From: Ilyobacter polytropus DSM 2926 | GTDB lineage: Bacteria; Fusobacteriota; Fusobacteriia; Fusobacteriales; Fusobacteriaceae | Assembly: GCF_000165505.1 (NCBI RefSeq) | Contig: NC_014632.1 | Location: forward strand, 868,001 to 932,000 | DNA: 64,000 bases | Reading direction: 5' to 3' | Shown: positions 3,624 through 63,573 of the stretch, piece after piece | Position numbering within the stretch: the stretch's first letter is position 1 | Layout of the letters: each line of letters begins with the position of its first letter | The notes under the pieces: generated by a model | What the model was told of the DNA's origin: nothing | Database searches by the model: none | Seen by the model: only the letters and a program-made list of their open reading frames with translations | Program-made: the position numbers and the translations under genes

Positions 3624-5177
3624 ATGAGTATTTTAAACGTTAGTAATGTAAGCCACGGCTTTGGGTCTAGAGTAATTTTGGAAGATGCATCTTTCCGTCT
3701 GCTAAAAGGTGAACATGTGGGACTGGTAGGTGCCAATGGAGAGGGAAAGTCGACTTTCCTAAATATCATAACAGGTAAGCTCATGCCTGACGAAGGGGAT
3801 GTGAGCTGGTGCAACCATATAACAACTGGGTATCTAGACCAGTACAGCACTCTCGAAAAGGGGAAAAGTATAAGGGATATTTTAAAATCAGCTTTTTCCG
3901 CTATGTTTGAACTGGAAAAAGAGACAATGGAACTCTACGAAAAGATGGCAGATTGTACACCTGAAGAGATGGATGCTATCCTTGAAGAAGTAGGAGAGAT
4001 ACAGAGTATTTTAGAGAGTTCAGATTTTTATAACTTGGATTCTAAAATAGAAGAATATGCTGCAGGTCTTGGACTAATGGAGATTGGGTTGGATAGAGAC
4101 GTGTCTGAACTGTCTGGTGGTCAGAGAGCAAAGATTTTACTTGCAAAGGTACTTCTTGAAAATCCTATGATTCTTATACTAGATGAGCCTACTAACTTTT
4201 TGGATGAAAACCACATTGTCTGGCTGAAAAATTTCCTAAAAAATTATGAAAATGCCTTTATTCTGGTATCTCACGACATTCCTTTTCTAAATGAGGTTAC
4301 CAATGTTATATACCACATTGAAAAAGCTGTCCTCACAAGATATACAGGAGACTACTATCAGTTTAGGGATATGTATGAACTAAAGAAGCGTCAGATAGAG
4401 ATGGCCTATAAAAAGCAGCAGAAAGAGATAGCCAATTTAGAGGATTTTATTGCCAGAAATAAGGCCCGTGTTGCCACGACAAATATGGCAAAGGACAGAC
4501 AGAAAAAACTAGACCGTATGGAGATTATAGAGATAGCCAGGGAGAAACCAAAACCGATCTTTGGATTTAAAACTGCTCGTACTCCCTCTAGAGAGATTAT
4601 AGAGGTAAAGGATCTGGTTATAGGTTATGATGAGCCGCTGACAAGGGCTCTTAATTTCTCTATAGAGCGTAACCAGAAGATCGCCATAAGAGGTGTCAAT
4701 GGACTGGGGAAATCCACCTTACTGAATACTATTTTGGGAAAAATACAGCCTATCTGCGGAGAGGTAGAGCATGGACAGTTTCTGGAAATAGGTTATTTTA
4801 AGCAAGAGGAGAAAAGCAGCAACACTCCGGCCTTAAATGAATTTTGGGATGAATTTCCAAGCTTTACAAATGCTGAAGCCAGGGCTGCCTTGGCTAGATG
4901 TGGACTTACAAATGATCATATTACCAGTCAGATGAGAGTCTTATCTGGTGGAGAAAATGCAAAAGTAAGATTGGCCAAGATAATGAACAGAGAAATTAAC
5001 TTTTTAGTTTTAGATGAGCCTACAAATCACTTGGACATAGATGCCAAGGAGGAATTGAAGCGGGCTATTAAAGAATTCCAGGGGACGGTAGTTATGGTTA
5101 GCCATGAGCCTGATTTCTACATGGATATAGCCACGGAAATCTGGGATGTAGAAAATTGGACCACAAAGGTGGTATAG
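3624..5177 (+). CDS. ABC-F family ATPase
   Basis: Cytosolic duplicated ATPase without membrane segments. First nucleotide-binding domain: Walker A GANGEGKST, signature LSGGQRAK, Walker B ILILDEPTN. Then a charged linker (about residues 240-310, rich in Lys/Arg/Glu, with NKARVATTNMAKDRQKK) typical of the ABC-F P-site tRNA-interaction motif. Second domain: GVNGLGKST, LSGGENAKVRL, FLVLDEPTNHLD. ABC-F proteins bind the ribosomal E site and act in translation regulation or antibiotic protection. The 517-residue length and linker fit the housekeeping YbiT/YkpA-like branch better than a resistance factor; that is an inference. It stands alone with its own terminator. Confidence 0.88.
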   Translation: MSILNVSNVSHGFGSRVILEDASFRLLKGEHVGLVGANGEGKSTFLNIITGKLMPDEGDVSWCNHITTGYLDQYSTLEKGKSIRDILKSAFSAMFELEKETMELYEKMADCTPEEMDAILEEVGEIQSILESSDFYNLDSKIEEYAAGLGLMEIGLDRDVSELSGGQRAKILLAKVLLENPMILILDEPTNFLDENHIVWLKNFLKNYENAFILVSHDIPFLNEVTNVIYHIEKAVLTRYTGDYYQFRDMYELKKRQIEMAYKKQQKEIANLEDFIARNKARVATTNMAKDRQKKLDRMEIIEIAREKPKPIFGFKTARTPSREIIEVKDLVIGYDEPLTRALNFSIERNQKIAIRGVNGLGKSTLLNTILGKIQPICGEVEHGQFLEIGYFKQEEKSSNTPALNEFWDEFPSFTNAEARAALARCGLTNDHITSQMRVLSGGENAKVRLAKIMNREINFLVLDEPTNHLDIDAKEELKRAIKEFQGTVVMVSHEPDFYMDIATEIWDVENWTTKVV

Positions 5178-31989: not shown

Positions 31990-33342
31990 TTAATATGCTC
32001 CTTTTCGGTTTAATACATACTTAATAGTTTGAAGTAAAAGGACTATATCTAGCCACAAAGACCAGTTCCGTATATAATATAAGTCTGATGCAATTCTCTC
32101 TTCATAGTCTTCCACATCTGAACGTCCGTGGGACTGCCACATTCCTGTTATCCCAGGTTTTATTTGAAATACTTTTTTTCCAATCTCATAACCATAGTGC
32201 AGTTCGAGTTCTTTTTTAACAATTGGTCTAGGCCCCACAATGCTCATTTCACCTTTTAAAACATTTATAAATTGTGGAAATTCATCTAGGGAGCTTTCCC
32301 GAAGGAATTTACCAATTGGAGTAATTCGTGGATCATCTTTTAGTTTGAAATTATTGTAATATTCCTCTCTTTTCTTTTCGTCTTTCAACATCTCCTGGAG
32401 TCTCTCTTCTGCATCGGCATACATGGTTCTAAATTTATATATTTTAAATTCCTTTAGGTCTTTTCCTATCCTGGTATGCTTAAAGAAAAGAGGACCGCCA
32501 TCTTTTTTAATTTTTTTAGAAAAAATAACTATTAATATTCCTAGAATCAAGATTCCACCAAGACTTAATAAAACATCCATAATTCGTTTTATGAAATTTC
32601 TGAACTTTGAATGTATTTGCTGAGTGGCGGTTATAAGGAGCAAACCGTCATAATCCTGGATCTGAGAATTTAAGTTGAATATTCCATTATTGTCAGGTAT
32701 AAATTTCAATTTTTTGATATGCCCGTCTAAGTCATTGCTTATTTTTCTCCAGTTTAAATCTTTTAGGTCCGTCCCAGGAAGTGCAACTATAACCTGATCT
32801 ATAGGGTTAGTTTTTAGAAAATCAAGTAATTCACTGTATTTACAAACTACCTGACTTTCAGGCACATCACACTGATCACTTATTTGAACAAAACCTATAA
32901 GCTTGTACATAGAGGAGTGATGAATTTTTATTAGTTTGGCAAAGTGTTTTGCAGTAATTCCAGTACCAATAACCAATATTTTTTTCTTGAGGTATTTCCA
33001 GAAATGATTTTTAATAAAATTGGTGAAAAAGATATTGAAAAAAATAAATATAGTACTAAGAAATAGATAAAACCAGACATATTGAAAACCTAAGAATACA
33101 AAGTCAGTTATAACTATTATAACAAAAAATTCAGAGTGAAGCTGAAGTTGCTTTTTTAGGTCTTCCCAGACCAAAATATTATTTAAAGAGTAAGTCCCGT
33201 TGAAAATATTTAACACGAAATAGATAAAAAAAGTGTAAATAATAAAATTATTTTCTACATTAAAGATATAATTTAGGAAAAAATAAAATAAAATTTGGGC
33301 TGTGATTAAAAAAATATTTAACATAGTCTTAATTATAATCAC
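31990..33342 (-). CDS. Initiating undecaprenyl-phosphate sugar-1-phosphate transferase (WbaP/WcaJ type)
   Basis: A 450-residue polyprenyl glycosylphosphotransferase that starts repeat-unit assembly by moving a sugar phosphate to undecaprenyl phosphate. Four or five N-terminal helices (about 5-110) precede a nucleotide-binding-like domain (about 130-240) and the bacterial sugar transferase domain (about 260-450) with KRIMDVLLSLGGILILG, KIYKFRTMYADAEERL, LRESSLDEFPQFINVLKGEM, SIVGPRPI and PGITGMWQ. I choose GTG at 33342 with GGGAGGG 6 bases upstream. It is the last gene of the minus arm and ends at a strong terminator. The sugar (often Gal, Glc or fucosamine) is not predictable. Confidence 0.9.
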   Translation of the reverse strand: MIIIKTMLNIFLITAQILFYFFLNYIFNVENNFIIYTFFIYFVLNIFNGTYSLNNILVWEDLKKQLQLHSEFFVIIVITDFVFLGFQYVWFYLFLSTIFIFFNIFFTNFIKNHFWKYLKKKILVIGTGITAKHFAKLIKIHHSSMYKLIGFVQISDQCDVPESQVVCKYSELLDFLKTNPIDQVIVALPGTDLKDLNWRKISNDLDGHIKKLKFIPDNNGIFNLNSQIQDYDGLLLITATQQIHSKFRNFIKRIMDVLLSLGGILILGILIVIFSKKIKKDGGPLFFKHTRIGKDLKEFKIYKFRTMYADAEERLQEMLKDEKKREEYYNNFKLKDDPRITPIGKFLRESSLDEFPQFINVLKGEMSIVGPRPIVKKELELHYGYEIGKKVFQIKPGITGMWQSHGRSDVEDYEERIASDLYYIRNWSLWLDIVLLLQTIKYVLNRKGAY

Positions 33343-33441
33343 ACAAATCCCTCCCACCCTTATAAAAGTTTAAATAACTTTGCATAAAAAACGAACCACA
33401 ATTTTTTGTAGTTTTAATATTCTTGTTAAAGTTAATTTAAA

Positions 33442-39179: not shown

Positions 39180-40649
39180 ATGCTATTTAATTCCCTTGAA
39201 TTTATGATGTTTTTTATATTGGTGGTCACAGGTTATTTTTTATTACCCTATAGATTTAGATGGGGATTATTGTTAGCTTCTAGTTATTATTTTTACGGAA
39301 GTTGGAATTCAAAGTATCTTATTTTGATTATCATATCTACATTAATTGATTATTTTGCAGGAATTATGATGGGAAATGAAGAGAAAAAAGAAAAAAGAAA
39401 AAAATACTTATATTTAAGCTTGGCCAGTAATTTGGGGATGCTGTTTGTATTTAAATATTTTAATTTTTTTATCGGGAATGTTAACAGTATTTTCAACTAT
39501 ATAAAACTTGATTTTACAGCACCGGGACTGAGGCTTCTTCTTCCTGTGGGTATTTCATTTTACACATTTCAGACTTTGAGTTATACCTTTGATGTGTATA
39601 GGGGTACAAGAGAGGCCGAAAAGCATCTGGGGATATTTGCAACTTATGTTGCTTTTTTCCCGCAACTGGTTGCAGGGCCTATAGAAAGCTCTACAAATTT
39701 ACTTCCGCAATTTAGGAAAAAAACGGATTTTGATTATATCAGAATGACAGAAGGACTAAAATTAATGGTTTGGGGATTATTCAAAAAAGTAGTCGTTGCA
39801 GACAGGACAGCATTAATAGTAGATAGGATTTATAATGATGTAAACAGTTTTGAAGGTCTTACACTACTTATAGCCTCTGTTTTTTTTGGTTTTCAGATAT
39901 ACTGCGATTTTTCAGGTTATTCTGATATTGCTATTGGATCGGCCAAGGTTATGGGCTTTGATCTGATTGAAAACTTCAAAACTCCGTATTACTCAAAATC
40001 TATTTCTGAATTCTGGAGAAGATGGCATATATCTTTGGGGAAATGGTTTAAAGATTATCTATATATATCTTTAGGGGGAAACAGAGTATCGAAAGTCAAA
40101 TTTTATAGAAATCTTATGATTGTATTTTTAGTGAGCGGACTCTGGCACGGTGCTAGCTGGAATTTTGTAATATGGGGTGCTCTTCACGGTATCTACATCG
40201 TGGTAGATATTTATACAAAAGCTAATAGAAAACAATTTTATGAAAAAATTAAACTGACTAAATTTCCAACCTTGATGAAATTTATACACGTAGGTTGCAC
40301 TTTTTCATTGGTTACCTTTTCGTGGATTTTTTTTAGAGCCAATACACTTAAAGACGCTTTATATGTAATAACCCATACTTTTAGCAGCATGGAAAGTTAC
40401 ACTACATTCAACGGAATATATCAGGCTTTAGATGCTTTAAATGCAGGTAAGATAGGCTTTATAATTACTCTTTTATCCATAGGGATTATGGAAATTTTTC
40501 ACCTTAGATCAAGAAGTAAAAAAATATCTGATGTATTGAAGAAAAGGCCACTTTACTTAAGATGGGGTGTTTATTATTCTTTGATGCTTTGGATAATTAT
40601 GTTTGGAGTATTTGAAGGTGCCAGCGAGTTTATATATTTTCAGTTTTAG
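39180..40649 (+). CDS. MBOAT O-acyltransferase (AlgI-like)
   Basis: A 489-residue polytopic inner-membrane acyltransferase of the MBOAT family, similar to AlgI/DltB-type proteins. Typical stretches: SYYFYGSWNSKYLILIIIST near the start, LLPVGISFYTFQTLSYTFDV, FFPQLVAGPIESSTNLLPQF, IYCDFSGYSDIAIGSAKVMG, EFWRRWHISLGKWFKDYLYI and the catalytic-histidine region LVSGLWHGASWNFVIWGALH. It would carry acetyl groups across the membrane to O-acetylate the polysaccharide. AGAGGTGATTTT precedes the ATG. It is first in the plus arm and pairs with the SGNH gene 14 bases downstream. Confidence 0.92.
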   Translation: MLFNSLEFMMFFILVVTGYFLLPYRFRWGLLLASSYYFYGSWNSKYLILIIISTLIDYFAGIMMGNEEKKEKRKKYLYLSLASNLGMLFVFKYFNFFIGNVNSIFNYIKLDFTAPGLRLLLPVGISFYTFQTLSYTFDVYRGTREAEKHLGIFATYVAFFPQLVAGPIESSTNLLPQFRKKTDFDYIRMTEGLKLMVWGLFKKVVVADRTALIVDRIYNDVNSFEGLTLLIASVFFGFQIYCDFSGYSDIAIGSAKVMGFDLIENFKTPYYSKSISEFWRRWHISLGKWFKDYLYISLGGNRVSKVKFYRNLMIVFLVSGLWHGASWNFVIWGALHGIYIVVDIYTKANRKQFYEKIKLTKFPTLMKFIHVGCTFSLVTFSWIFFRANTLKDALYVITHTFSSMESYTTFNGIYQALDALNAGKIGFIITLLSIGIMEIFHLRSRSKKISDVLKKRPLYLRWGVYYSLMLWIIMFGVFEGASEFIYFQF

Positions 40650-40663
40650 GGGAGGTGATTTAA

Positions 40664-41602
40664 TTGAAAATCAATGTCAAGGAGAGCATTATATTTACAG
40701 GTATATTTATTTTTATAATATACTCGATATCTATGTTTATGAATTCAAAAATTTCACCTTTTGGCTATAACGAAAAGAGATATCCAAAGATTCAAGAGGC
40801 AACTAAACAGTCAGATCTTCTTATTTTGGGTAGCTCTCAAGCTTATAGTGGTTTTAATCCAAGAATTTTTGATACAAATCTTGGTATTCACACATACAAC
40901 TTAGGTACTCCTGCAGAGGTTCCTGTGATAACTTATTATAGATTTGAAGAGGCAATGAAAAAATCCAATCCCAAAGTAGTAATAGTGGATATTTATTTCA
41001 GAATTCTACGGTATGATGTGAATTTTCAGTATATTCCCCAGTGGATAAAAAGTGTTTCTAGGGAAACAAAGGAAAAAATGCTTAAGGAACTTCCTTTAAA
41101 GGACAGATTAAAGGTGATTTTTAATATAACAGGCATGGATAAAAACATGAGTGAATATATTAGAAATTTTGCTAAAGAAAGAGCAGCCGGTCACAAAGGC
41201 TTTGTATCGGTAAAGACAAAAGCAAGTCTAGAAAGTCTAGAGGAAGAAAACAGATTTGCAAATTACACCTTTGAAACCAATCACTATGTAATGAAAAATA
41301 TAGAGTATTTGGATAAAATAATCGACAGCAGCAAAAAAAAGGGAATAAAGGTAATCTTTGTTACAACGCCTCTTCCAAAAAGTTCTGTGGAAAAAATAGA
41401 GAATTACATTGAAATTCATAATTTTATAGAGGACCATTTGAGAAAAAAAGGAGTAGATTATTATGATTTCAATGTTTTAAAAAATCCTGTTTTTGTTGAT
41501 ACAGAAGATTTTGAAGACGGCAATCATCTAAATTATTACGGAGCTGCCAAAATAAGTGAATATATGTCTAAGGAAATATTAAAAAAGGAAATGTTTGAAT
41601 AA
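40664..41602 (+). CDS. Membrane-anchored SGNH/DltD-like protein
   Basis: A 312-residue protein with one N-terminal helix (about residues 8-26) and an extracytoplasmic SGNH-hydrolase-like domain: nucleophile region LLILGSSQAYSGFNP (Ser57/58) and the Asp-x-x-His pair FEDGNHLN (Asp285, His288). VIVDIYFRI and KVIFVTTPLPKSS are core strands. Such proteins transfer acyl groups handed over by an MBOAT partner, like AlgJ/AlgX or DltD. The start is TTG at 40664 with GGAGGTGA upstream. Adjacency to the MBOAT gene supports a two-protein O-acetylation system. Confidence 0.8.
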   Translation: MKINVKESIIFTGIFIFIIYSISMFMNSKISPFGYNEKRYPKIQEATKQSDLLILGSSQAYSGFNPRIFDTNLGIHTYNLGTPAEVPVITYYRFEEAMKKSNPKVVIVDIYFRILRYDVNFQYIPQWIKSVSRETKEKMLKELPLKDRLKVIFNITGMDKNMSEYIRNFAKERAAGHKGFVSVKTKASLESLEEENRFANYTFETNHYVMKNIEYLDKIIDSSKKKGIKVIFVTTPLPKSSVEKIENYIEIHNFIEDHLRKKGVDYYDFNVLKNPVFVDTEDFEDGNHLNYYGAAKISEYMSKEILKKEMFE

Positions 41603-46811: not shown

Positions 46812-47516
46812 ATGGAGAAGTTTTCATTATCAGTTTCTGTATATTCAAAAAAAATTAAAATAATCCATTATCTTTTTTTATTGTTATTTTTTATGAATTT
46901 ATTATCTATATTTTTCAAATATATTTTGGGGCATCCTCATGTGTATGGTTTCGTTCCTCTGTTTGATTTTGATTCTGAAAATAATATACCGACTTATTTT
47001 TCATCTATTATTTTATTGATCTCTGCAGTCCTTTTAAAAATAATTGCAATTTTCAAGAAGAGTATAAGTGATGATTTTCATTTAAACTGGTCCGTATTAT
47101 CTTTTATATTTTTGTGGATGTCTGTGGATGAGTTATCAAAAATCCACGAGCTCTTATCTGGACCGATAAAGAATTTGTTTGATTTACCTAGGATATTCAA
47201 TTATGCCTGGGTTATTTTGGGTACTTTATTTATTCTGATTTTATTTATATTTTATTATAAATTTTTATTGAATTTGCCAAAAAAAACTATGTTTTATTTT
47301 GTAGTAGCTGGATTAGTCTTTGTGACTGGAGCCATAGGAGTAGAAACCATAAGTGGCTACTATAGATATGTTTCAGTTGAAAAAGACTTTGTATATATAA
47401 TTATGATAACAATTGAAGAATCTTTTGAAATGCTCGGTGTTATAATTTTCATAAATGGACTATTTCAATATGCCGAAGATAATATTTCAAGAATCAAGTT
47501 GAAATTTGAACCGTGA
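46812..47516 (+). CDS. Unknown polytopic membrane protein (copy A)
   Basis: A 234-residue protein with six or seven hydrophobic segments and no family I can name. Its relative at 47593 shares GHPxVYGxV, LFDFDSE, NIPTYFSS (residues about 40-65), the acidic/His motif MSVDELSKIHE (Asp106, Glu107, His112, Glu113), GAIGVE (Glu178) and IEESFEMLG (Glu202, Glu203, Glu206). Conserved charged residues inside or next to membrane segments suggest an enzyme or transporter rather than a passive protein. AAGGAGGTGG precedes the ATG. It is preceded by 219 bases without a gene. Confidence 0.65.
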   Translation: MEKFSLSVSVYSKKIKIIHYLFLLLFFMNLLSIFFKYILGHPHVYGFVPLFDFDSENNIPTYFSSIILLISAVLLKIIAIFKKSISDDFHLNWSVLSFIFLWMSVDELSKIHELLSGPIKNLFDLPRIFNYAWVILGTLFILILFIFYYKFLLNLPKKTMFYFVVAGLVFVTGAIGVETISGYYRYVSVEKDFVYIIMITIEESFEMLGVIIFINGLFQYAEDNISRIKLKFEP

Positions 47517-47592: not shown

Positions 47593-48300
47593 ATGGAAAA
47601 AAAATCATTTTCAATTTTAATTTCTTTTAAAAAAGTTTTTAAAATAATTATATGTATGTTTTTAATCTTACTTTTTTTTAATATAATTACAGGTTATTTT
47701 AAATTTATACTAGGACATCCTTATGTGTATGGAATGGTTCGATTATTTGATTTTGATTCTGAAAGCAATATACCTACATATTTTTCTTCATTTATTTTAC
47801 TGTTTTCTGCTGTACTTCTTCAAATAATAGCTCTATTTGAAAAAAATAAAGGAAATATATTTTCTTACAAATGGTCCTTTCTCTCGCTTGTTTTTTTATT
47901 TTTATCCATTGATGAAGCTTCGAGTACTCATGAATTATTTATACTTCCATTGAGGGAAAAATTCAATTTATCTGGTATATTTTATTATTCCTGGATTATA
48001 TTGGGAATTATATTTGTTTTATTATTGCTTATATTTTATTATCGGTTTTTATTTGAACTGCCAAAAGAGACTCGAAATAAGTTTGTTATTGCTGGAATAG
48101 TATATCTAACGGGAGCGATAGCTTTTGAGATGATAGGAGGGTACTATATTGACTTAAATCCGGGAAAAACTCTTATATACGCCTTGATTACATCATTTGA
48201 AGAATCCCTGGAAATGTTAGGAGTAATTATTTTTATTAATTCGCTACTACACTATATTGAGAAAAAAAAATTTGAAATTAATTTAAGTTTTAGACGTTGA
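47593..48300 (+). CDS. Unknown polytopic membrane protein (copy B)
   Basis: A 235-residue tandem paralog of the preceding gene, 76 bases downstream, similar along its whole length. It keeps GHPYVYG, LFDFDSESNIPTYFSS, LSIDEASSTHE (Asp107, Glu108, His113, Glu114), GAIAFE (Glu179) and FEESLEMLG (Glu203, Glu204, Glu207). The loops differ more than the motifs. GAGGTG precedes the ATG. The pair is flanked by paralogous glycosyltransferases on both sides, so the block may act as a unit in polysaccharide assembly; function unknown. Confidence 0.65.
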   Translation: MEKKSFSILISFKKVFKIIICMFLILLFFNIITGYFKFILGHPYVYGMVRLFDFDSESNIPTYFSSFILLFSAVLLQIIALFEKNKGNIFSYKWSFLSLVFLFLSIDEASSTHELFILPLREKFNLSGIFYYSWIILGIIFVLLLLIFYYRFLFELPKETRNKFVIAGIVYLTGAIAFEMIGGYYIDLNPGKTLIYALITSFEESLEMLGVIIFINSLLHYIEKKKFEINLSFRR

Positions 48301-51917: not shown

Positions 51918-53351
51918 ATGTCTCTAAAAGCTGAACTTAAATCAGGACTTATAATAAACTTTATAGCAAGATATTCTGGAGTTTTAATACAGATAGTTAT
52001 TCTAGGTATCTTATCAAGGTTACTGACCCCAAAAGAATTTGGATTTGTTGCTGTTATCATGGTATTTCTCACTTTTTTTGAAATGATAAGCAGCATGGGA
52101 ATCGGACCTGCAGTGATACAGGAAAAGACTCTTTCAGAAGAGGATAACTCTACAATATTTAATTTAACTATTATTTTAGGGTTATTATTTGGAATTTCAT
52201 TTTATTTTTTTTCATTTGTAATAGCTGAATTTTATCAAAATAATGAGTATATAAGCGTTGGAAAATATTTATCGTTAATTGTCTTTTTAAGTTCACTTAA
52301 TATTGTCCCGCTATCTTTGCTAAAAAAATCAAAAGAGTTTAAAAAAATAGCTATGATAGGAGTTAGCGGTAATCTTATATCAGGGTCTATAGCGGTTTAT
52401 TTAGCATTCGGTGGGATGGGGTATTTTGTGTTGATCTTGAGACCGATTATAGGCTCTATATACGTTTTTATACTTACTTATAGGATATCTAGACTTAGAT
52501 TTAGATTTATTTTTAATTTGGAAACATTGAAAAAAATAGCACAATTCTCAATTTTTCAGTCACTGGCGGATATTTTATATTATTTCACAAAAAATCTGGA
52601 CAATATATTGATCAGTAAAATAATCGGTATAGAGGCATTGGGATTTTATGATAAGGCTTATAAACTGATGGTTTATGCAGTACAAAATCTGACTAGTGTC
52701 ATGAATCCTGTACTTTTGCCGGTTTTTTCAAGTTATAAAGATGATAGTGATCTGATTTATAATTCCTATTCCAAACTCAGTAAAATATTGACATTGTTTG
52801 GCTTGCCGCTGTCAGTATATCTTTATTTTACTGGTGAAGAAATAATCTATATTATTTTTGGAAACCAGTGGGGGCAGAGTGTTCCAATATTTAAAATACT
52901 TGCTTTAAGCGTCTGGATGCAATTAATATTAATAAGTTGTGGATCAATATTTCAAGTATCAGGAAGATCCGATCTATTATTCGTAAACGGGATTGTTTCT
53001 TCTGTTATCTTAGTCTGTGGAATCTCTTATGGCCTAATCAAGAAAGATCTTATTTTAGTAGCTGTGGGTGTTTTAGTAGCTTTTTTTATAACTATTATTT
53101 TTAGCTATTGGATGATGTTTAATAAAATTTTCAAAAAGAATTTTTCAATATTTTTTAAAGAGTTAATAACTCCATTTTTAATTTCTGTTATTGTTTTTAT
53201 TTGTTTGTATTTAACAACTAGATTCTTACATATAAAAAATCATTATGAAACGTTAATTATAAAAAGTTTTTCAACTTTGATTGGGTTTTTATGTGGAATT
53301 TATATAACCAAAGAATACAAACTTCTAATAAAGGTTTTGTTTAAAAAATAG
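51918..53351 (+). CDS. wzx: Wzx-type polysaccharide flippase
   Basis: A 477-residue, roughly 14-helix member of the MOP/WzxC-like polysaccharide transporter family, which flips lipid-linked repeat units to the periplasmic face. The start LKAELKSGLIINFIARYSGV is the family opening (K-x-G-x8-R), with SRLLTPKEFGFVAVIMVFL, MGIGPAVIQEKTLSEEDNST and LDNILISKIIGIEALGFYDK later. TAGGTG lies ahead of the ATG. With the Wzy-like polymerase and Wzz/kinase genes it defines a Wzy-dependent pathway. Confidence 0.92.
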   Translation: MSLKAELKSGLIINFIARYSGVLIQIVILGILSRLLTPKEFGFVAVIMVFLTFFEMISSMGIGPAVIQEKTLSEEDNSTIFNLTIILGLLFGISFYFFSFVIAEFYQNNEYISVGKYLSLIVFLSSLNIVPLSLLKKSKEFKKIAMIGVSGNLISGSIAVYLAFGGMGYFVLILRPIIGSIYVFILTYRISRLRFRFIFNLETLKKIAQFSIFQSLADILYYFTKNLDNILISKIIGIEALGFYDKAYKLMVYAVQNLTSVMNPVLLPVFSSYKDDSDLIYNSYSKLSKILTLFGLPLSVYLYFTGEEIIYIIFGNQWGQSVPIFKILALSVWMQLILISCGSIFQVSGRSDLLFVNGIVSSVILVCGISYGLIKKDLILVAVGVLVAFFITIIFSYWMMFNKIFKKNFSIFFKELITPFLISVIVFICLYLTTRFLHIKNHYETLIIKSFSTLIGFLCGIYITKEYKLLIKVLFKK

Positions 53352-56652: not shown

Positions 56653-56710
56653 AGAGGCTTGATTTGTTTCATTTGGTTTTAAAAACTTCGATGAATCTAA
56701 GCCTCTTTTT
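56653..56710 (+). terminator. Rho-independent terminator inside the plus arm
   Basis: AGAGGCTT-G-ATT pairs with AAT-C-T-AAGCCTCT across a long loop, followed by TTTTT. It divides the biosynthetic genes from the wzz-kinase-TolC-HlyD group. Confidence 0.75.
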
Positions 56711-56847: not shown

Positions 56848-57606
56848 ATGCAAGATAATAATAAGAAAGAAAGAGAAAAAAATGAAATAAGAAAAGAAAT
56901 TGACATGGTCGAGCTGTTTATGATTGTTAAACAAAACTGGAAAGTTCTTTTCAGGACAATTTTTATAATGGTGGCCTTGGGCTTTACCTATTCTTACTAT
57001 AAGGCGGATACTTATAAGGCAGAAGTTATACTTATGGTTTCAGGTAGTAATCTTATATCACCAGATAGGTTGGAAAATTCTCAAGTTTCTTTGAATCAAA
57101 AGCTTGTTTCAACTTATACAGAAATTGCCCAGAGTTCTAGTATAATGCGTGATGTTGTACAAAAGTTAGATTTGAAAAATTCTCCAGAGTCTTTGGCAAG
57201 GAAAGTCGAAGTTGCGCCAGTGGGGATGACAGAATTGATAAAGATCAGCTATGAAGACGAAAATCCACAGAAGGCTGCTCTTATTGTAAATCATGTTTCA
57301 GAAGAGTTTATGATAAAAATCAAGTCAGTTATGCGTTTTGATAACCTAAAAATCATAGAAAGTTCTCGAGTTCCAGTAAATCCAGAGTCTAAAAAAACTA
57401 AATTGATAATTGCAATTTCAATGATTATAGGTATTCTTCTAGGAATTTTTGAAGTAATGTGGGGAGAATATTATCAAAATAAAATAAAAAATCCAGAAGA
57501 TATAGAGAGGCTTTTGGATTGTCAGGTACTCGCAAATGTTCCAGATTATTCTACAGTAAAATTAGATAAAAAATCCAATGAATTAAAAAAAGTCAAAAAA
57601 CGTTAA
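56848..57606 (+). CDS. wzz: Wzz/CpsC-like chain-length determinant
   Basis: A 252-residue inner-membrane co-polymerase. Two transmembrane helices (about residues 35-55 and 182-202) flank a periplasmic domain of about 125 residues. It opens with VELFMIVKQNWKVLFRTIF (Wzz signature) and has the Pro-rich segment SRVPVNPESKKTKLI before the second helix. The cytosolic tail (about 205-252, YYQNKIKNPEDIERLL) would dock the separate kinase encoded next. This split layout is typical of CpsC/CpsD rather than a single-chain Wzc. AAGGTGATG site upstream. Confidence 0.88.
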   Translation: MQDNNKKEREKNEIRKEIDMVELFMIVKQNWKVLFRTIFIMVALGFTYSYYKADTYKAEVILMVSGSNLISPDRLENSQVSLNQKLVSTYTEIAQSSSIMRDVVQKLDLKNSPESLARKVEVAPVGMTELIKISYEDENPQKAALIVNHVSEEFMIKIKSVMRFDNLKIIESSRVPVNPESKKTKLIIAISMIIGILLGIFEVMWGEYYQNKIKNPEDIERLLDCQVLANVPDYSTVKLDKKSNELKKVKKR

Positions 57607-57662
57607 AATCAGGAGTTGAGTAAAATAACTTCTTGATTATTTACTAGATAGGAGGTTTTCCA

Positions 57663-58364
57663 ATGAGGAGAAGAAAACTAGTATTTTTTGATAGAGATAA
57701 AGAACATATTGCAGAAGCAATTAGAATACTTAGAACCAACTTATATTTTACAGAATCTAAAGACAGAAAAGTAGTACTGGTGACAAGCTCTATACCAAAA
57801 GAGGGGAAAAGTACTATAGCAGCAAATTATGCCCTGAGTGTAGCCATAAGCGGCGAGAAAGTGATTTTAGTGGATTGTGATATAAGAAGACCAAGAGTAG
57901 TTGACAGTTTTGGGATAAAAGCCAATTATGGTCTTGAAGAGGTTTTAAGGGGAAAGAAAAATTTAGAAGATGTTATTTTACATAATGTGGAACGGAATTT
58001 AGATCTCCTCCCAGCAACAAGTTTTGGTGAGAATGTTACGGAACTATTTCTGGGGAAAAAAATAGTAGAGATTTTGGATGGACTAAAGGAAAAATACAAT
58101 CTTATAGTTCTGGATACGCCTCCTCTTACTGTGGCAACTGACGCCGCACTTTTATCAACATATGCAGATGGAGTAGTATATGTAGTTGGCTATGATATGG
58201 TTTTTAAAAAAGAACTTCTAAGCGGAAAAAAATTACTTGAAAAAGCAGGAGCAAATATATACGGGGTAGTAGTAAATAAAGTAAGTATAAACGGTTATTC
58301 AATGGGAAACTATGGACACTATAGTTCTAATTACAAATATTATGACGAATATAAAAAGCGCTGA
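57663..58364 (+). CDS. BY-kinase, CpsD/CapB-like tyrosine autokinase
   Basis: A 233-residue cytosolic P-loop tyrosine kinase. Walker A is in TSSIPKEGKSTIAANYA, Walker A' in VILVDCDIRRPRVVDSFG, Walker B in LIVLDTPPLTVATDAAL. The C-terminus carries the tyrosine cluster NYGHYSSNYKYYDEYKKR, the usual autophosphorylation tail. With the preceding Wzz-like protein it controls polymer length and export. AGGAGGT precedes the ATG. Start EHIAEAIRILRTNLYFTES is the family signature. Confidence 0.93.
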   Translation: MRRRKLVFFDRDKEHIAEAIRILRTNLYFTESKDRKVVLVTSSIPKEGKSTIAANYALSVAISGEKVILVDCDIRRPRVVDSFGIKANYGLEEVLRGKKNLEDVILHNVERNLDLLPATSFGENVTELFLGKKIVEILDGLKEKYNLIVLDTPPLTVATDAALLSTYADGVVYVVGYDMVFKKELLSGKKLLEKAGANIYGVVVNKVSINGYSMGNYGHYSSNYKYYDEYKKR

Positions 58365-58477
58365 AATTAATTTTTTAATTGTTTAAAAAGAATATATTTT
58401 AATTTTACTTCAATAAAAGGATGTTTTTAACTGGGGAGTTTAAGGTAAGTTTAACTAACTTAAGGGAGGTAGGTATA

Positions 58478-59728
58478 ATGAATAAAAAGAAATTTATTGT
58501 CGCAGCTCTACTTGCTGTTTTTGCAAGAGGTTACGCTGAAGATATGACTTTGAATGATGTGCTAGATAGATTAGAGAAAAGTAATCGAGAGATAATGGTA
58601 CAGGATATGGAAATCGAATCATTAGATTTGCAGAAGAAAAAGCAGTTTAAAAATATGCTTCCAAGTGCTTCAATTGATTGGTCAAATGATTTTGTAGACG
58701 TTACCGATGAAGATCAGAATGACTTTGGAAGTGGGGATAGTACCTCTGAGGTAGGTGTCAGCATTCCGTTATTTCGAGGAGGAACTTTATACAATCAATA
58801 TAAAAAATCAACTTTGGACAAAGAAAACTCCAAGTATGAAAGAAATCTTGTAAGTTATGAAGTTCAAGAAACTGCAATTGCTACTTATTTTGAAGTTTTG
58901 AATAAGAGAAAACAGGCGGAAATAAGCCGTATGGTACAAAATTCTCTAAGTAAACAAGAGGAAAGACTAAGATCTCTTTATAAAAGTAATAAAATGATTC
59001 CTAAATCTGAACTTTTAAAAGTTCAGGCAGATTTGATATTGACTAAATCTGAATTAACCAGAGAAATAAAAGAGCAAAGATCTGCTGAAGAGACTTTGTT
59101 AGTGTTGCTTGATATGCCATTTAATTCAGATGTTACTTTTACAGAGGATTTGTCTGAAGAGCTAAAAATAGATATGTTTGATATTGATGTAGACTTGGAA
59201 AGAGCCTTGAAATATGGAAGTAAAATAAAGCAAGAGGACATTATATTGGAGAATTCTGGTATTGATGTAAAAATAGCAAAAGGAGAGCTTTATCCTACCT
59301 TGGACGCTTCTGCTAGTTTTAGATTGGATAGCGTTGATGATGATGAGAGTGAATATCAAGTATCTCTTAGCGCCTCTTGGGAGATTTTTTCCTGGGGAAG
59401 TACTTTAGATGACATAAAACAAAAGAAAATCAATTATAATCAAGCAATGACTAACTATAAAAATGCAGTGGATACTATTGCATTAGAGGTTAGAAATCAA
59501 TATAGGGAAATGGAAATATTAAGTGAGGAAGTTTATTCTCAAAAGATTAATTTGCAGTTGGAAGAGGAAAATATGAGAATCGATAAATTAAGATATGAGA
59601 ATGGAATAATAAGTACATATGATTATTTAGATTCGGTAAGCGGACTTAGTACAGCTCAGGAAAGATATTATTCTCTACAGAGAGACCTGTTGCTGGCTAT
59701 AAGAATATATGAAAATTTATTAAGATAG
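58478..59728 (+). CDS. TolC-like outer-membrane efflux protein
   Basis: A 416-residue protein with signal peptide (MNKKKFIVAALLAVFARGYA, cleavage before ED) and two outer-membrane efflux (OEP) repeats of long helices: DMTLNDVLDRLEKSNREIMV, IPLFRGGTLYNQYKKSTLDK, VQETAIATYFEVLNKRKQAE, and in the second half ASWEIFSWGSTLDDIKQKKI with NQYREMEILSEEV. It would form a trimeric tunnel through the outer membrane. The ATG at 58478 follows GGGAGGTAGGT; an ATG at 58421 lacks a signal peptide. It is 12 bases ahead of the HlyD-like gene and lies inside a polysaccharide locus. Confidence 0.87.
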   Translation: MNKKKFIVAALLAVFARGYAEDMTLNDVLDRLEKSNREIMVQDMEIESLDLQKKKQFKNMLPSASIDWSNDFVDVTDEDQNDFGSGDSTSEVGVSIPLFRGGTLYNQYKKSTLDKENSKYERNLVSYEVQETAIATYFEVLNKRKQAEISRMVQNSLSKQEERLRSLYKSNKMIPKSELLKVQADLILTKSELTREIKEQRSAEETLLVLLDMPFNSDVTFTEDLSEELKIDMFDIDVDLERALKYGSKIKQEDIILENSGIDVKIAKGELYPTLDASASFRLDSVDDDESEYQVSLSASWEIFSWGSTLDDIKQKKINYNQAMTNYKNAVDTIALEVRNQYREMEILSEEVYSQKINLQLEEENMRIDKLRYENGIISTYDYLDSVSGLSTAQERYYSLQRDLLLAIRIYENLLR

Positions 59729-59740
59729 GGGAAGAGTTGT

Positions 59741-61102
59741 ATGAAGAGGAAAAATTGGATAATACTCATAATAATTTTAATAATTCTTGCCACCAGGAAT
59801 ATGGATTTTGTAAAAGATATTAAAAATCTGAGTTTTCGTAAAAAAGATGATAAAAATATTGCTCCTGTTGTAAGAATAGAAAAATTAAAAAAAGGAAGTA
59901 TGAATGGAGACCTCTTATTTCAAGGTGTCGTTGTGCCAAAAGAGACAATTCCTCTTTATGTTAATGTGCCTGTAACAGTTGAAAATATTTTAGTTAAAAG
60001 TGGTAGTCTTGTAAATTCAGGTGATTCGTTACTAGAATTCAGTGCTTCTATTAAAAGTGAGCTAGAAAGAAGTCTGGAAGAAGTAAATTTGGATTTGAAC
60101 AACATAGATCTTGAATTAAGAGACTTGACATCGGGATCACTCAAATTGGAATTAGAAAATAAAACTTTAGAGATAAGAAGTTTGAAGGCAGAGATCAATG
60201 CCATGGAAAGAGCTCTTAAAGTTTTAAAATTTGAGTCGAGAACACTGAGAGAACAGGCAGATGCTAAGATGAGATTGTTTGAAAACGACGGAATATCATC
60301 AATAGAGGCAAATGCTGCGGAAACCAATGCAGATAAAAAAGAAGCCGAGTTTACAGATCAAATCTCTAGTCTTGATATTTCAAGACAACAATATGAACTT
60401 CTACTTTTGAGCTACGAAAGGCTTAAAAGAGAGTTGAATCTTAAAAGAATAACGCTTAAAAGTAGAAGAAGGAAAATTTTACTTGAAAAAAGGGACTTAG
60501 AGGCTAAATTAAATAATGTAAATGAACCTTTAAAGTCTCCAATCAATGGTTTAGTAGCTGAAATTTTTGTAGAAGAGGGAATTCCTGTTGCAAGAGGGAA
60601 AAAACTGATTTCAGTAGTACCAGAAGGCAGCTACATGATAAAAGTTGATGTGCCATTGTATATAGCCTCGATGATAGAAAAAGGACAAAAAGCTAAAGTG
60701 ACCCTGAGTGACAATAAAAGTGATCAATCCTACGAAGGAGTAGTAGAAAAGGTTGCACAAGGAGCTAGTGTAGTTGAGACTAAAAACTATGAAGATAAAG
60801 TTGTGGAAGTTTATGTAGATGTAGAAAAAACTGAAGGATTAAAATTGGGTTATTATACTACAGTGAGTATAGAGGAAGGAAAGTCTGGAGATTTATTAAC
60901 ACTTAATTCTTTTTCAGTTTTAGAAGATGAAGGAAAACCTTTTGTATATATTTTTGAAGATGGAATGGCTAAAAAAAGATATATAAAAACAGGAAAAGTA
61001 GATTCTTTTAGAATTGAAGTTCTAGATTTACCAGAAGGGACGCCTATAGTGGTAAATCCCTTTGAAGTGTATGACAATAAAAAAATTGTTGCTGAAAATT
61101 AA
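59741..61102 (+). CDS. HlyD-like periplasmic adaptor
   Basis: A 453-residue membrane-fusion protein: one N-terminal helix (about residues 5-22), a barrel-sandwich/lipoyl half (VPVTVENILVKSGSLVNSGD, about 75-100), a long coiled-coil hairpin (about 105-265), the second lipoyl half (SPINGLVAEIFVEEGIPVAR), and beta-barrel and membrane-proximal domains. The long hairpin suits docking to a TolC tip. No ABC, RND or MFS pump gene is adjacent, so the inner-membrane partner is either elsewhere or the polysaccharide machinery itself. GGGGAAGAG precedes the ATG. Confidence 0.87.
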   Translation: MKRKNWIILIIILIILATRNMDFVKDIKNLSFRKKDDKNIAPVVRIEKLKKGSMNGDLLFQGVVVPKETIPLYVNVPVTVENILVKSGSLVNSGDSLLEFSASIKSELERSLEEVNLDLNNIDLELRDLTSGSLKLELENKTLEIRSLKAEINAMERALKVLKFESRTLREQADAKMRLFENDGISSIEANAAETNADKKEAEFTDQISSLDISRQQYELLLLSYERLKRELNLKRITLKSRRRKILLEKRDLEAKLNNVNEPLKSPINGLVAEIFVEEGIPVARGKKLISVVPEGSYMIKVDVPLYIASMIEKGQKAKVTLSDNKSDQSYEGVVEKVAQGASVVETKNYEDKVVEVYVDVEKTEGLKLGYYTTVSIEEGKSGDLLTLNSFSVLEDEGKPFVYIFEDGMAKKRYIKTGKVDSFRIEVLDLPEGTPIVVNPFEVYDNKKIVAEN

Positions 61103-61187: not shown

Positions 61188-61274
61188 TATTCTATAAATA
61201 CAGCTTTTTGTTTGTACAATTTTGAGAGTAATATTTTTTGTTTTGAATATTCTCTTTGCATTGGGGTGAAAACA

Positions 61275-62432
61275 ATGAAAAAATTATCTATAAATTATAA
61301 TGCAAATAAAAGAATGGTTTTATTGTTGATCGTATTAATTATAACCAATTACTCTTTTAATCTAATATTTAATTACACATATCTTTTACCACTAAATTTG
61401 TTTATTTTAATGTTATTTTATATTTCAATGCATTTTTTATTTCCACATAAGTTTCAATTATTAAGGGAAGATATGTGTATGTTTGCAATAATTATATTTT
61501 GTTTAGCACATTCTATTATTTTCGAAACATATGATTATACTTTCCTGGTTTTGGGAATGTCTTTTATTCCATACTTTTTTTCAAGATTTATTGTATTAGA
61601 GGATAGAGACGTAGATTTTATCATCAAGATGTTATATGTTATAGGAATAATACTTTTAGGAGTATACTATCACTATGTTGGTTTACATGCTGTAGAAAAT
61701 AGGTTTAGAGTCGACGGAAGACACCCTGTGGCTATTGCAGCAGATTTTGGATTAGCGGCCATTATTTTTTCATATGTTTTATTTACAACTAAAAATTTCT
61801 TTGTTAAGTTACTTAGTTTTTGTCTTTTAATTTCAACTTTTTACCTAACTGTATTTGTGCTAGCAACAAGAGGAGCCAGCTTTACAGGATTGATGGCTAT
61901 AACCCTACTTTATTTTATGCTTAGCGACAAAAGTATTAAAGACAGGTTGAAAAGTATAATAATAATAGCAATAGTCATAGGATGTTTTATCTATACTATA
62001 AATCACGAGGCCTTTATAAAACAGTACCCTATGTTAGAAAGATTTACTTTAGAAGGAATGCTCAAAGACCCTTCACTTGTAGGAAGTAGAAGATATACAG
62101 GGAGAACAGATTTGATGGTTAAAAGCCTTAGGATGATAATGGAAAAACCATTCTTAGGGTACGGTCTAGGTTCAGTTTATTCCCATAACATTATTTTGGA
62201 ATGGACGGCATCTTTAGGTTTAATTGGATTGTTTCCATTTCTTCTTTTTATTTTTTCAATATTTAGTAAATTATTTAGACGAATTAAATATAATCCCAGG
62301 TTTGCACTGTTTTTCACCTTAATGATTTACGTTTTTGTGCTTAGAATGGTCAGTTTTGCCATGGTTTCTCATAAAGCATTTTTTGCACTGGCAGGAGTTT
62401 TCTTGTCTTATCATGATACACCAAAAGAATAG
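61275..62432 (+). CDS. wzy: O-antigen ligase/polymerase family protein (Wzy-like)
   Basis: A 385-residue polytopic protein with about 10-11 helices and the Wzy_C signature: a periplasmic loop (about 230-300) with LVGSRRYTGRTDLMVKSLRM, then KPFLGYGLGSVYSHNIILEW. It also has the Arg-rich ENRFRVDGRHPVAIAADFGL. This superfamily includes O-antigen ligase and Wzy polymerase; inside a Wzx/Wzz locus the polymerase role is more likely. ATG at 61275 follows GGGGTGA; an ATG at 61212 has no site. Low sequence conservation is normal for the family. Confidence 0.82.
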   Translation: MKKLSINYNANKRMVLLLIVLIITNYSFNLIFNYTYLLPLNLFILMLFYISMHFLFPHKFQLLREDMCMFAIIIFCLAHSIIFETYDYTFLVLGMSFIPYFFSRFIVLEDRDVDFIIKMLYVIGIILLGVYYHYVGLHAVENRFRVDGRHPVAIAADFGLAAIIFSYVLFTTKNFFVKLLSFCLLISTFYLTVFVLATRGASFTGLMAITLLYFMLSDKSIKDRLKSIIIIAIVIGCFIYTINHEAFIKQYPMLERFTLEGMLKDPSLVGSRRYTGRTDLMVKSLRMIMEKPFLGYGLGSVYSHNIILEWTASLGLIGLFPFLLFIFSIFSKLFRRIKYNPRFALFFTLMIYVFVLRMVSFAMVSHKAFFALAGVFLSYHDTPKE

Positions 62433-62511: not shown

Positions 62512-63573
62512 ATGAGTGACCTTTTAAAATATGAAAACAATTTTTCAAAAATAAATCATTTTGATTTAAAGTTATCTCATGGTGATTTAAATTATAATAA
62601 AACTCCATTGGTAACTATAGCAATTCCAACATATAAAAGGGCAAATCTTTTGAAACAAGCTTTAGATAGTGCCTTAAATCAAAAAGGTTTTTCAGATTAT
62701 GAGGTTATCGTAATTGATGATGAAAATGATCCTGGTAATGAGACAGAAACTCAAAAACTTATTAAAAAATATAATGATCCTAAACTTTTATACTATAGAT
62801 ACGAAGGAAAGAGCACTCTTGGAATGGCAGGGGCTTGGAATAAGTGTCTTGAAATGGCAAGGGGTAAATGGTATTCAATGCTTCACGATGATGATCTACT
62901 TAAAGAAAACTTTTTAGATGAGATGATGCAGATTTTAAATTCCAACCCAAATATTTCTTTTTTAAAAGCTCAGCATGACCATATTGATGAAAGAGACTTG
63001 TCTGATTTGAATTATGAATACCGATCTGGCACTGTTGAGAAAATGTTTGAAAAAAAAGTGGAAAAATTTTCTGAGATAGACTACATTCTTTTGAATCCAA
63101 TAGGAGGACCTGTTGGAATAATCTTAGATAGAGAAAAAGCTATTAAACTAGGTGGATTCAATGAAAAAACATATCCAGCAATTGATTATGCTTTTTTTAC
63201 AAAATACTGTCTAGAATATGATACATATTATTATCATAAAAATCTTTGTTCATATAGAATAGCTCAAAATATCTCTTTAAAAAATGGAGTTTTGATGAAT
63301 TGTGCAAAAATACATTATGATATAATAAATGATTTAATGTCAAAAAATATCCCAAGAAAAATATTTTTTAAAAAATATCCTGCATATTACTACCTGAAGG
63401 CAGCAAAGCATATAAAAGAATTTTGGGGAGTAGAAGTCACAGAAGAAGAGATTAAATTTTTAGAAAAAGACAAAAATTTGAGTATATTTTGGATGGGAAC
63501 ATATGGTGTTTTTAAAAGGTTGTGGAGGATAAAAAAAATGATCTTTAGCAAATACCCTGTTCAAGAAGTATGA
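62512..63573 (+). CDS. Family 2 glycosyltransferase, related to the gene at 50744
   Basis: A 353-residue GT-A enzyme. The N-terminal extension is followed by VTIAIPTYKRANLLKQALDS, NQKGFSDYEVIVIDDEND, WNKCLEMARGKWYSMLHDDD and LNPIGGPVGIILDREKAIKL. It matches the gene at 50744 throughout, with the same extension and same C-terminal KxxKEFWGVEV pattern. AAGGAGG precedes the ATG. It is the last gene of the polysaccharide locus before the terminator at 63610. Confidence 0.87.
   Translation: MSDLLKYENNFSKINHFDLKLSHGDLNYNKTPLVTIAIPTYKRANLLKQALDSALNQKGFSDYEVIVIDDENDPGNETETQKLIKKYNDPKLLYYRYEGKSTLGMAGAWNKCLEMARGKWYSMLHDDDLLKENFLDEMMQILNSNPNISFLKAQHDHIDERDLSDLNYEYRSGTVEKMFEKKVEKFSEIDYILLNPIGGPVGIILDREKAIKLGGFNEKTYPAIDYAFFTKYCLEYDTYYYHKNLCSYRIAQNISLKNGVLMNCAKIHYDIINDLMSKNIPRKIFFKKYPAYYYLKAAKHIKEFWGVEVTEEEIKFLEKDKNLSIFWMGTYGVFKRLWRIKKMIFSKYPVQEV

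Follow-up and report, generated by a model that had tools for sequence, protein, structure and literature searches.

The polysaccharide locus and its TolC-HlyD pair

Here we analysed a 64,000-nucleotide stretch of the Ilyobacter polytropus DSM 2926 genome, referred to as the window. The genome comprises 3,132,314 bp in 3 contigs and is 99.99% complete. A Wzz-type co-polymerase, a bacterial tyrosine kinase (BY-kinase), a TolC-family protein and an HlyD-family adaptor follow one another on the plus strand, and open reading frames and Pfam matches confirmed the order and positions that an initial annotation had given for these four genes (Table 1). The 12-base gap it reported between TolC and HlyD is exact. 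The initiating transferase, Wzx and Wzy-like protein that it placed in the locus were also recovered with Pfam, so the Wzx, Wzy-type protein, Wzz and BY-kinase of a Wzx/Wzy pathway are all present in the window, with the Wzy_C match just above its cut-off. The window also encodes a TolC-family protein and an HlyD-fold adaptor, as in MacAB-TolC exporters.

Table 1 Features of the polysaccharide locus, in window coordinates.
Feature	Position	Strand	Details
Initiating sugar transferase	31990..33357	-	PF02397 E 1.3e-63
Wzx-type flippase	51918..53351	+	PF13440 E 7.5e-74
Wzz/CpsC-type chain-length co-polymerase	56848..57606	+	252 aa, without fused kinase; PF02706 E 5e-14
CpsD/CapB-type bacterial tyrosine kinase (BY-kinase)	57663..58364	+	233 aa; AAA_31 E 4.5e-12
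TolC-family outer-membrane factor (OEP)	58421-59728 (ORF); 58478..59728 likelier	+	PF02321 E 7e-40
HlyD-family periplasmic adaptor	59741..61102	+	PF13437 E 4e-14
Wzy_C-type polymerase/ligase, first gene past HlyD	61212..62432	+	PF04932 32.5 bits, cut-off 31.7 (marginal)
GT2 glycosyltransferase	62512..63573	+	PF00535

The C-terminus of the BY-kinase is rich in Tyr (YSMGNYGHYSSNYKYYDEYKKR), and its Cetobacterium somerae homolog is named a CpsD/CapB family tyrosine-protein kinase in RefSeq. For TolC, the downstream start is more likely than the first one in the reading frame, judging by the predicted signal peptide (MNKKKFIVAALLAVFARGYA/ED...) and the resulting length of 416 aa, which matches TolC of the sister genome (L048). 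Between a beta-helix gene and Wzz lies a possible stem (agaggctt / aagcctct, with a long loop) followed by T's at 56653-56709; the terminator scan did not call it, the loop being too long, and it may mark a separate transcription unit. Elsewhere in the window, positions 39180-41602 encode what looks like a polymer O-acetylation pair, an MBOAT acyltransferase and then a protein with a weak match to DUF1574. Two neighbouring membrane proteins of 234-235 aa, paralogues of each other (46812-47516 and 47593-48300), have no Pfam family.

The HlyD-family protein contains an N-terminal transmembrane anchor, a split lipoyl domain and a long alpha-hairpin whose helices span about residues 101-181 and 187-261. 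In an AlphaFold model built from an alignment of four sequences, pLDDT is mostly above 85 for the hairpin and poor for the rest (overall 58). The hairpin helices are ~75-80 residues each in the model, or ~110-120 Å at 1.5 Å per residue. By fold and profile searches, the nearest solved folds are EmrA, MacA and HlyD. Other adaptors have a known TolC-docking motif at the hairpin tip that includes Leu, Ser and Arg. In the adaptor alignment, the Leu and Ser are invariant or nearly so and the Arg is not retained; the hairpin is shorter at two loci (L075, L078).

The six-gene module across Fusobacteriota

Relatives of HlyD were searched in 98 Fusobacteriota genomes, with neighbouring genes annotated by phmmer and Pfam. 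The full order is Wzz, kinase, CpsB/CapC phosphatase (PF19567), TolC, HlyD and a MacB/FtsX-type permease, and there are 22 complete loci with all six genes in this order plus a 23rd (L054) that is alike but truncated by a contig end. The Wzz-kinase-TolC-HlyD order, whose conservation the initial annotation had proposed to check, is therefore co-conserved, mostly with the phosphatase inserted between kinase and TolC. Wzz and the kinase of the module are separate proteins, though a few relatives have them fused. The kinase was recovered from 28 of the 98 genomes, the module HlyD clade from 27, and both from 26 (kinase alone in two, HlyD alone in one, neither in 69; Fisher p 3e-20, with genomes treated as independent and phylogeny uncorrected). 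Three genera are mixed for this trait, and in each of them the genomes with the kinase are also those with HlyD (8/12, 3/12 and 3/7 have both). The exceptions to co-occurrence are G061 (81% complete and fragmented), G047 (78% complete) and G097, in which the kinase match is weak (33% identity).

In a tree of 40 adaptors, which contains several long branches, the module HlyDs group into a single clade of 34 rows (support 100/99) separate from the MacA type. TolC and HlyD distances are correlated over 36 loci (r 0.95), indicating co-divergence, though part of this value comes from shared ancestry and the inclusion of three MacA-type loci. Both families are common, this genome alone encoding some eight OEP proteins, which would allow an ordinary efflux pair to land in a polysaccharide locus by chance. 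This explanation has next to no chance of being correct and was rejected, as the order is conserved in more than 20 loci and the co-occurrence extends over 26 genomes.

While the module stays constant, the sugar genes differ among relatives. For example, the RefSeq annotation of Cetobacterium somerae NZ_CP092520.1 independently gives the six module genes in the same sequence, and after them come a sugar transferase, a pyruvyl transferase and an O-antigen polymerase. The replicon that carries this full module (L115) is 0.7 Mb long and annotated as a plasmid. The O-antigen-style sugar genes of the window, recognised by sequence, raise the alternative that the product is an LPS O-antigen, joined to lipid A-core by a WaaL-type enzyme and exported over the Lpt bridge, with TolC-HlyD doing something else such as clearing stalled intermediates. 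Candidate ligases are two other Wzy_C proteins, of 570-591 aa, encoded elsewhere in the genome. However, canonical O-antigen loci are not known to contain a BY-kinase, CpsB-type phosphatase and TolC-HlyD. Here these genes are locked together over many loci, and the module is unchanged as the sugar genes around it vary, so we consider an O-antigen product unlikely.

The window locus is a shortened copy of the module with neither phosphatase nor permease, and a second, complete locus in the same genome (L047) carries both. In the Ilyobacter-like genus, the second locus (L047, L049, L051) has an extra small gene between HlyD and the permease; the L047 product is 149 aa and resembles a GxxExxY-type protein by sequence. 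Partial copies retain TolC-HlyD with or without the kinase. At L066, HlyD does not adjoin a TolC gene, and at L071 and L073 there are TolC-HlyD pairs with no recognised polysaccharide genes in the stretch inspected. Two Cetobacterium genomes (G008 and G011; L104, L105) have the phosphatase and an ATPase-less permease close together, with no kinase or TolC-HlyD clade, and thus the phosphatase and permease may also act independently of the rest. In genome G044 (L070/L113), the TolC gene is split into frames of 280 and 114 aa and there is no member of the short-permease clade; this is possibly a decaying copy of the module.

The gene 3' of HlyD in most relatives encodes a permease of 302-382 aa with MacB_PCD and FtsX domains by Pfam, and its nearest solved relatives are MacB permeases. 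This permease clade is found in 25 of the 27 genomes with the module HlyD. The permease is missing from the window copy and from those at L048, L050, L053, L070, L072, L075 and L076, and all of these genomes except that of L070 (G044) have one elsewhere. For this genome, it is at G000:C1:433235-434332 (in L047), and in G003 and G021 it lies together with the phosphatase on another contig (L101, L102). The initial annotation had stated that the pair has no pump gene. None was found in the window or the 16 kb downstream, so the statement is right locally; it is incomplete for the genome and the family, as the permease lies in the second locus and in most relatives.

No ATPase domain was found in the 302-382 aa permeases. 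A phmmer search with the ATPase of the genome's own MacAB-like locus (L100) found no adjacent ATPase at any module locus, and the same query matches the adjacent ATPases in MacAB-like loci. In or near the module genomes it matched only larger ABC proteins of 517-581 aa, at L052, L102 and window positions 3624-5177. The permease segment that matches the ATPase-coupling helix of MacB is largely retained, and an ATPase supplied in trans is therefore possible. A consistently paired RND or ABC pump had been named by the initial annotation as evidence against its reading. What was found amounts to half of such evidence, a permease with no accompanying ATPase gene, unlike the ordinary MacAB-TolC loci inspected.

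Ordinary efflux with a linked pump was considered and rejected. Distant HlyD relatives mostly adjoin a MacAB-type ATPase and/or permease (L077, L080-L083, L143, L144, L146-L149 and L151) and one adjoins a 1033-aa, RND-sized protein (L145), whereas the module clade has no ATPase; none of the distant relatives inspected adjoins Wzz or the kinase. Outside the Fusobacteriota, a pattern scan of genome contigs for the module returned only Cetobacterium and two weak matches, and a plasmid search only Cetobacterium. Adaptor profile searches gave matches of up to 157 bits in 398 genomes from the phylum of a Paenibacillaceae MAG and up to 86 bits in 296 genomes from the phylum of a Cytophagales MAG. Nine strong matches from the 398-genome set were inspected, and none is the module or lies beside Wzz or a kinase; seven adjoin a MacB-type ATPase and permease, one a 1033-aa RND-size protein, and one neither. 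Within this limited coverage of contigs, plasmids and samples of two other phyla, no counterpart was found outside the Fusobacteriota.

Outer-membrane polysaccharide export proteins

The initial annotation reported no gene resembling Wza in the locus, and this absence extends to the genome. A whole-genome search with PF02563 (OPX/Wza) gave nothing above the cut-off (best 13.2 bits, E 0.28, in a 71-aa frame), and the five SLBB proteins are all RnfC/PduS- or NuoF/HydB-like by sequence, placing them in electron transfer or metabolism. As far as the PF02563 and SLBB profiles reach, a hidden Wza is ruled out. With no PF02563 match above the cut-off, the genome likewise has no short OPX protein beside a barrel gene.

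The same PF02563 search recovered OPX proteins in six of the 98 Fusobacteriota genomes at 40-68 bits, and its sensitivity is therefore adequate for this phylum. Their distribution has no association with the kinase or the module HlyD. Two of the six were inspected in detail (G041 and G054) and have a lipoprotein-like OPX protein of ~340-350 aa no more than two genes away from a protein of 674-691 aa that resembles a fused Wzc. G059 has the same gene sizes as the OPX locus of G054, and in both genomes the OPX locus and the module are on different contigs. The OPX-containing proteins of G062 and G087 (L110, L111) are ~820-1000 aa and unlike Wza.

Profile searches are blind to unknown families, so the true exit could be a divergent Wza-like or other barrel protein elsewhere, with TolC-HlyD as an accessory. 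This is very improbable given the recovery of OPX in the other six genomes, the metabolic character of the SLBB proteins and the lack of any co-conserved candidate in the loci inspected. A further alternative is that TolC-HlyD, with or without the permease, is a MacAB-like exporter of some other cargo (a peptide, glycolipid or lipid) whose link with polysaccharide genes is no more than shared inheritance or regulation. Its nearest solved relatives are the drug and macrolide exporters EmrA and MacA/MacB, the MacB-like coupling segment means that an ATPase in trans could still drive the permease, and no polysaccharide genes were recognised around the pairs at L071 and L073 in the stretch inspected. 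Speaking against such a role are the tight presence/absence linkage to the kinase across the 98 genomes, the position within a Wzz-kinase unit with no ATPase, and a genome that by PF02563 and SLBB searches has no OPX exit for Wzy polymers. We judge another cargo to be unlikely; it and an O-antigen product are the chief alternatives to polymer export by the module.

A proposed route for the polymer

The reading we favour, with moderate confidence, is that polymer made by Wzx/Wzy exits through a conduit of TolC and HlyD that descends from an exporter like MacAB-TolC and is coupled to the Wzz/kinase machinery. The exit through TolC that the initial annotation suggested has partial support from the genomic observations: Wza is missing from this genome and rare in the phylum, and TolC-HlyD is conserved together with Wzz and the kinase in the place expected for Wza. 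Lipid-linked repeats would be flipped by Wzx and polymerised on the periplasmic face by the Wzy protein, with Wzz controlling the process and kinase/phosphatase cycling as a switch. HlyD, anchored in the inner membrane, would cross the periplasm with its long hairpin and dock on TolC. The growing polymer, which we infer to be the cargo, would then pass from Wzy/Wzz into the HlyD tunnel, entering from the periplasm, and leave through TolC; the conduit may dock to Wzz. The periplasm is both the site of Wzy polymerisation and the compartment from which MacAB-TolC draws its substrates, and a MacAB-derived conduit would therefore fit a Wzy product. At the inner membrane, the permease probably serves HlyD as a collar or gate, possibly energised by an ATPase in trans. 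For the window copy, the permease would be supplied by the second locus of the same genome. Several observations count against export by the module. These are the O-antigen-like sugar genes of the window, given that an LPS O-antigen would need no TolC route, the lack of a phosphatase and permease in the window copy, the separate phosphatase-permease pairs (L104, L105), the HlyD with no TolC (L066), the pairs away from polysaccharide genes (L071, L073) and the variable hairpin length (L075, L078).

As in the Gram-positive CpsB-CpsC-CpsD unit, a single operon encodes a CpsD-type kinase, a CpsB/CapC-type phosphatase (PF19567) and a Wzz-like protein that is not fused to the kinase; the module adds the outer-membrane export genes required by a two-membrane cell. 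Compared with the Wza/OPX-dependent Wzx/Wzy capsule pathway (E. coli group 1 type), the initiating sugar transferase, Wzx, Wzy, Wzz-type co-polymerase and BY-kinase are alike, and the outer-membrane component is likewise encoded beside the kinase. However, there is no OPX gene in the genome and TolC-HlyD is found instead, and Wzz and the kinase are separate as in Gram-positive CpsC/CpsD. The module shares with MacAB-TolC the TolC protein, HlyD-fold adaptor, MacB/FtsX-fold permease and coupling-helix-like segment, but it contains no ATPase domain or gene, lies within a polysaccharide/tyrosine-kinase operon, and has an adaptor of a distinct clade with a long hairpin that is closest to EmrA in the fold search. 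Synthase-dependent export (AlgE/BcsC/PgaA type) is defined by a synthase together with a barrel of 16-18 strands and a TPR protein; the window locus has Wzx and Wzy instead.

According to a 2022 study (PMC9601211), polysaccharides have three routes across the outer membrane, namely Wza-type OPX, OPX combined with a barrel, and barrels linked to a synthase, and the two that serve Wzx/Wzy polymers use an OPX protein. The EpsY/EpsX OPX/beta-barrel translocon (mBio 2022, PMC9601211) departs from Wza within a Wzx/Wzy pathway, as the module does, and in both, different proteins form the pore in the outer membrane and the part in the periplasm. EpsY/EpsX needs an OPX protein (PF02563), whereas the module has none and its outer part is of the TolC family. 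We found no description of a TolC-HlyD route for Wzy polymers in the open-licence literature. The parts of the module are familiar and their combination appears to be undescribed. More tentatively, and at slightly less than even odds, an OPX-free TolC conduit (TolC, long-hairpin HlyD and a motorless MacB-type permease) set on a Gram-positive-style CpsBCD kinase unit, and powered by polymerisation or kinase cycling in place of an ATPase of its own, may constitute a fourth outer-membrane route.

Fusobacteriaceae with a CpsD-type kinase are mostly without OPX, yet they consistently have the TolC-HlyD module. If the module exports polymer, it would be an additional outer-membrane route beyond those in PMC9601211, and polysaccharide export by it, if shown, would define a new class. 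It would also show how a one-membrane capsule control unit was adapted to a two-membrane cell and offer a case of a MacB-type permease working without its own ATPase. These findings suggest that the capsule or slime genes of a group of anaerobic Fusobacteriaceae without Wza include an undescribed exit for long sugar chains from a double-membraned cell.
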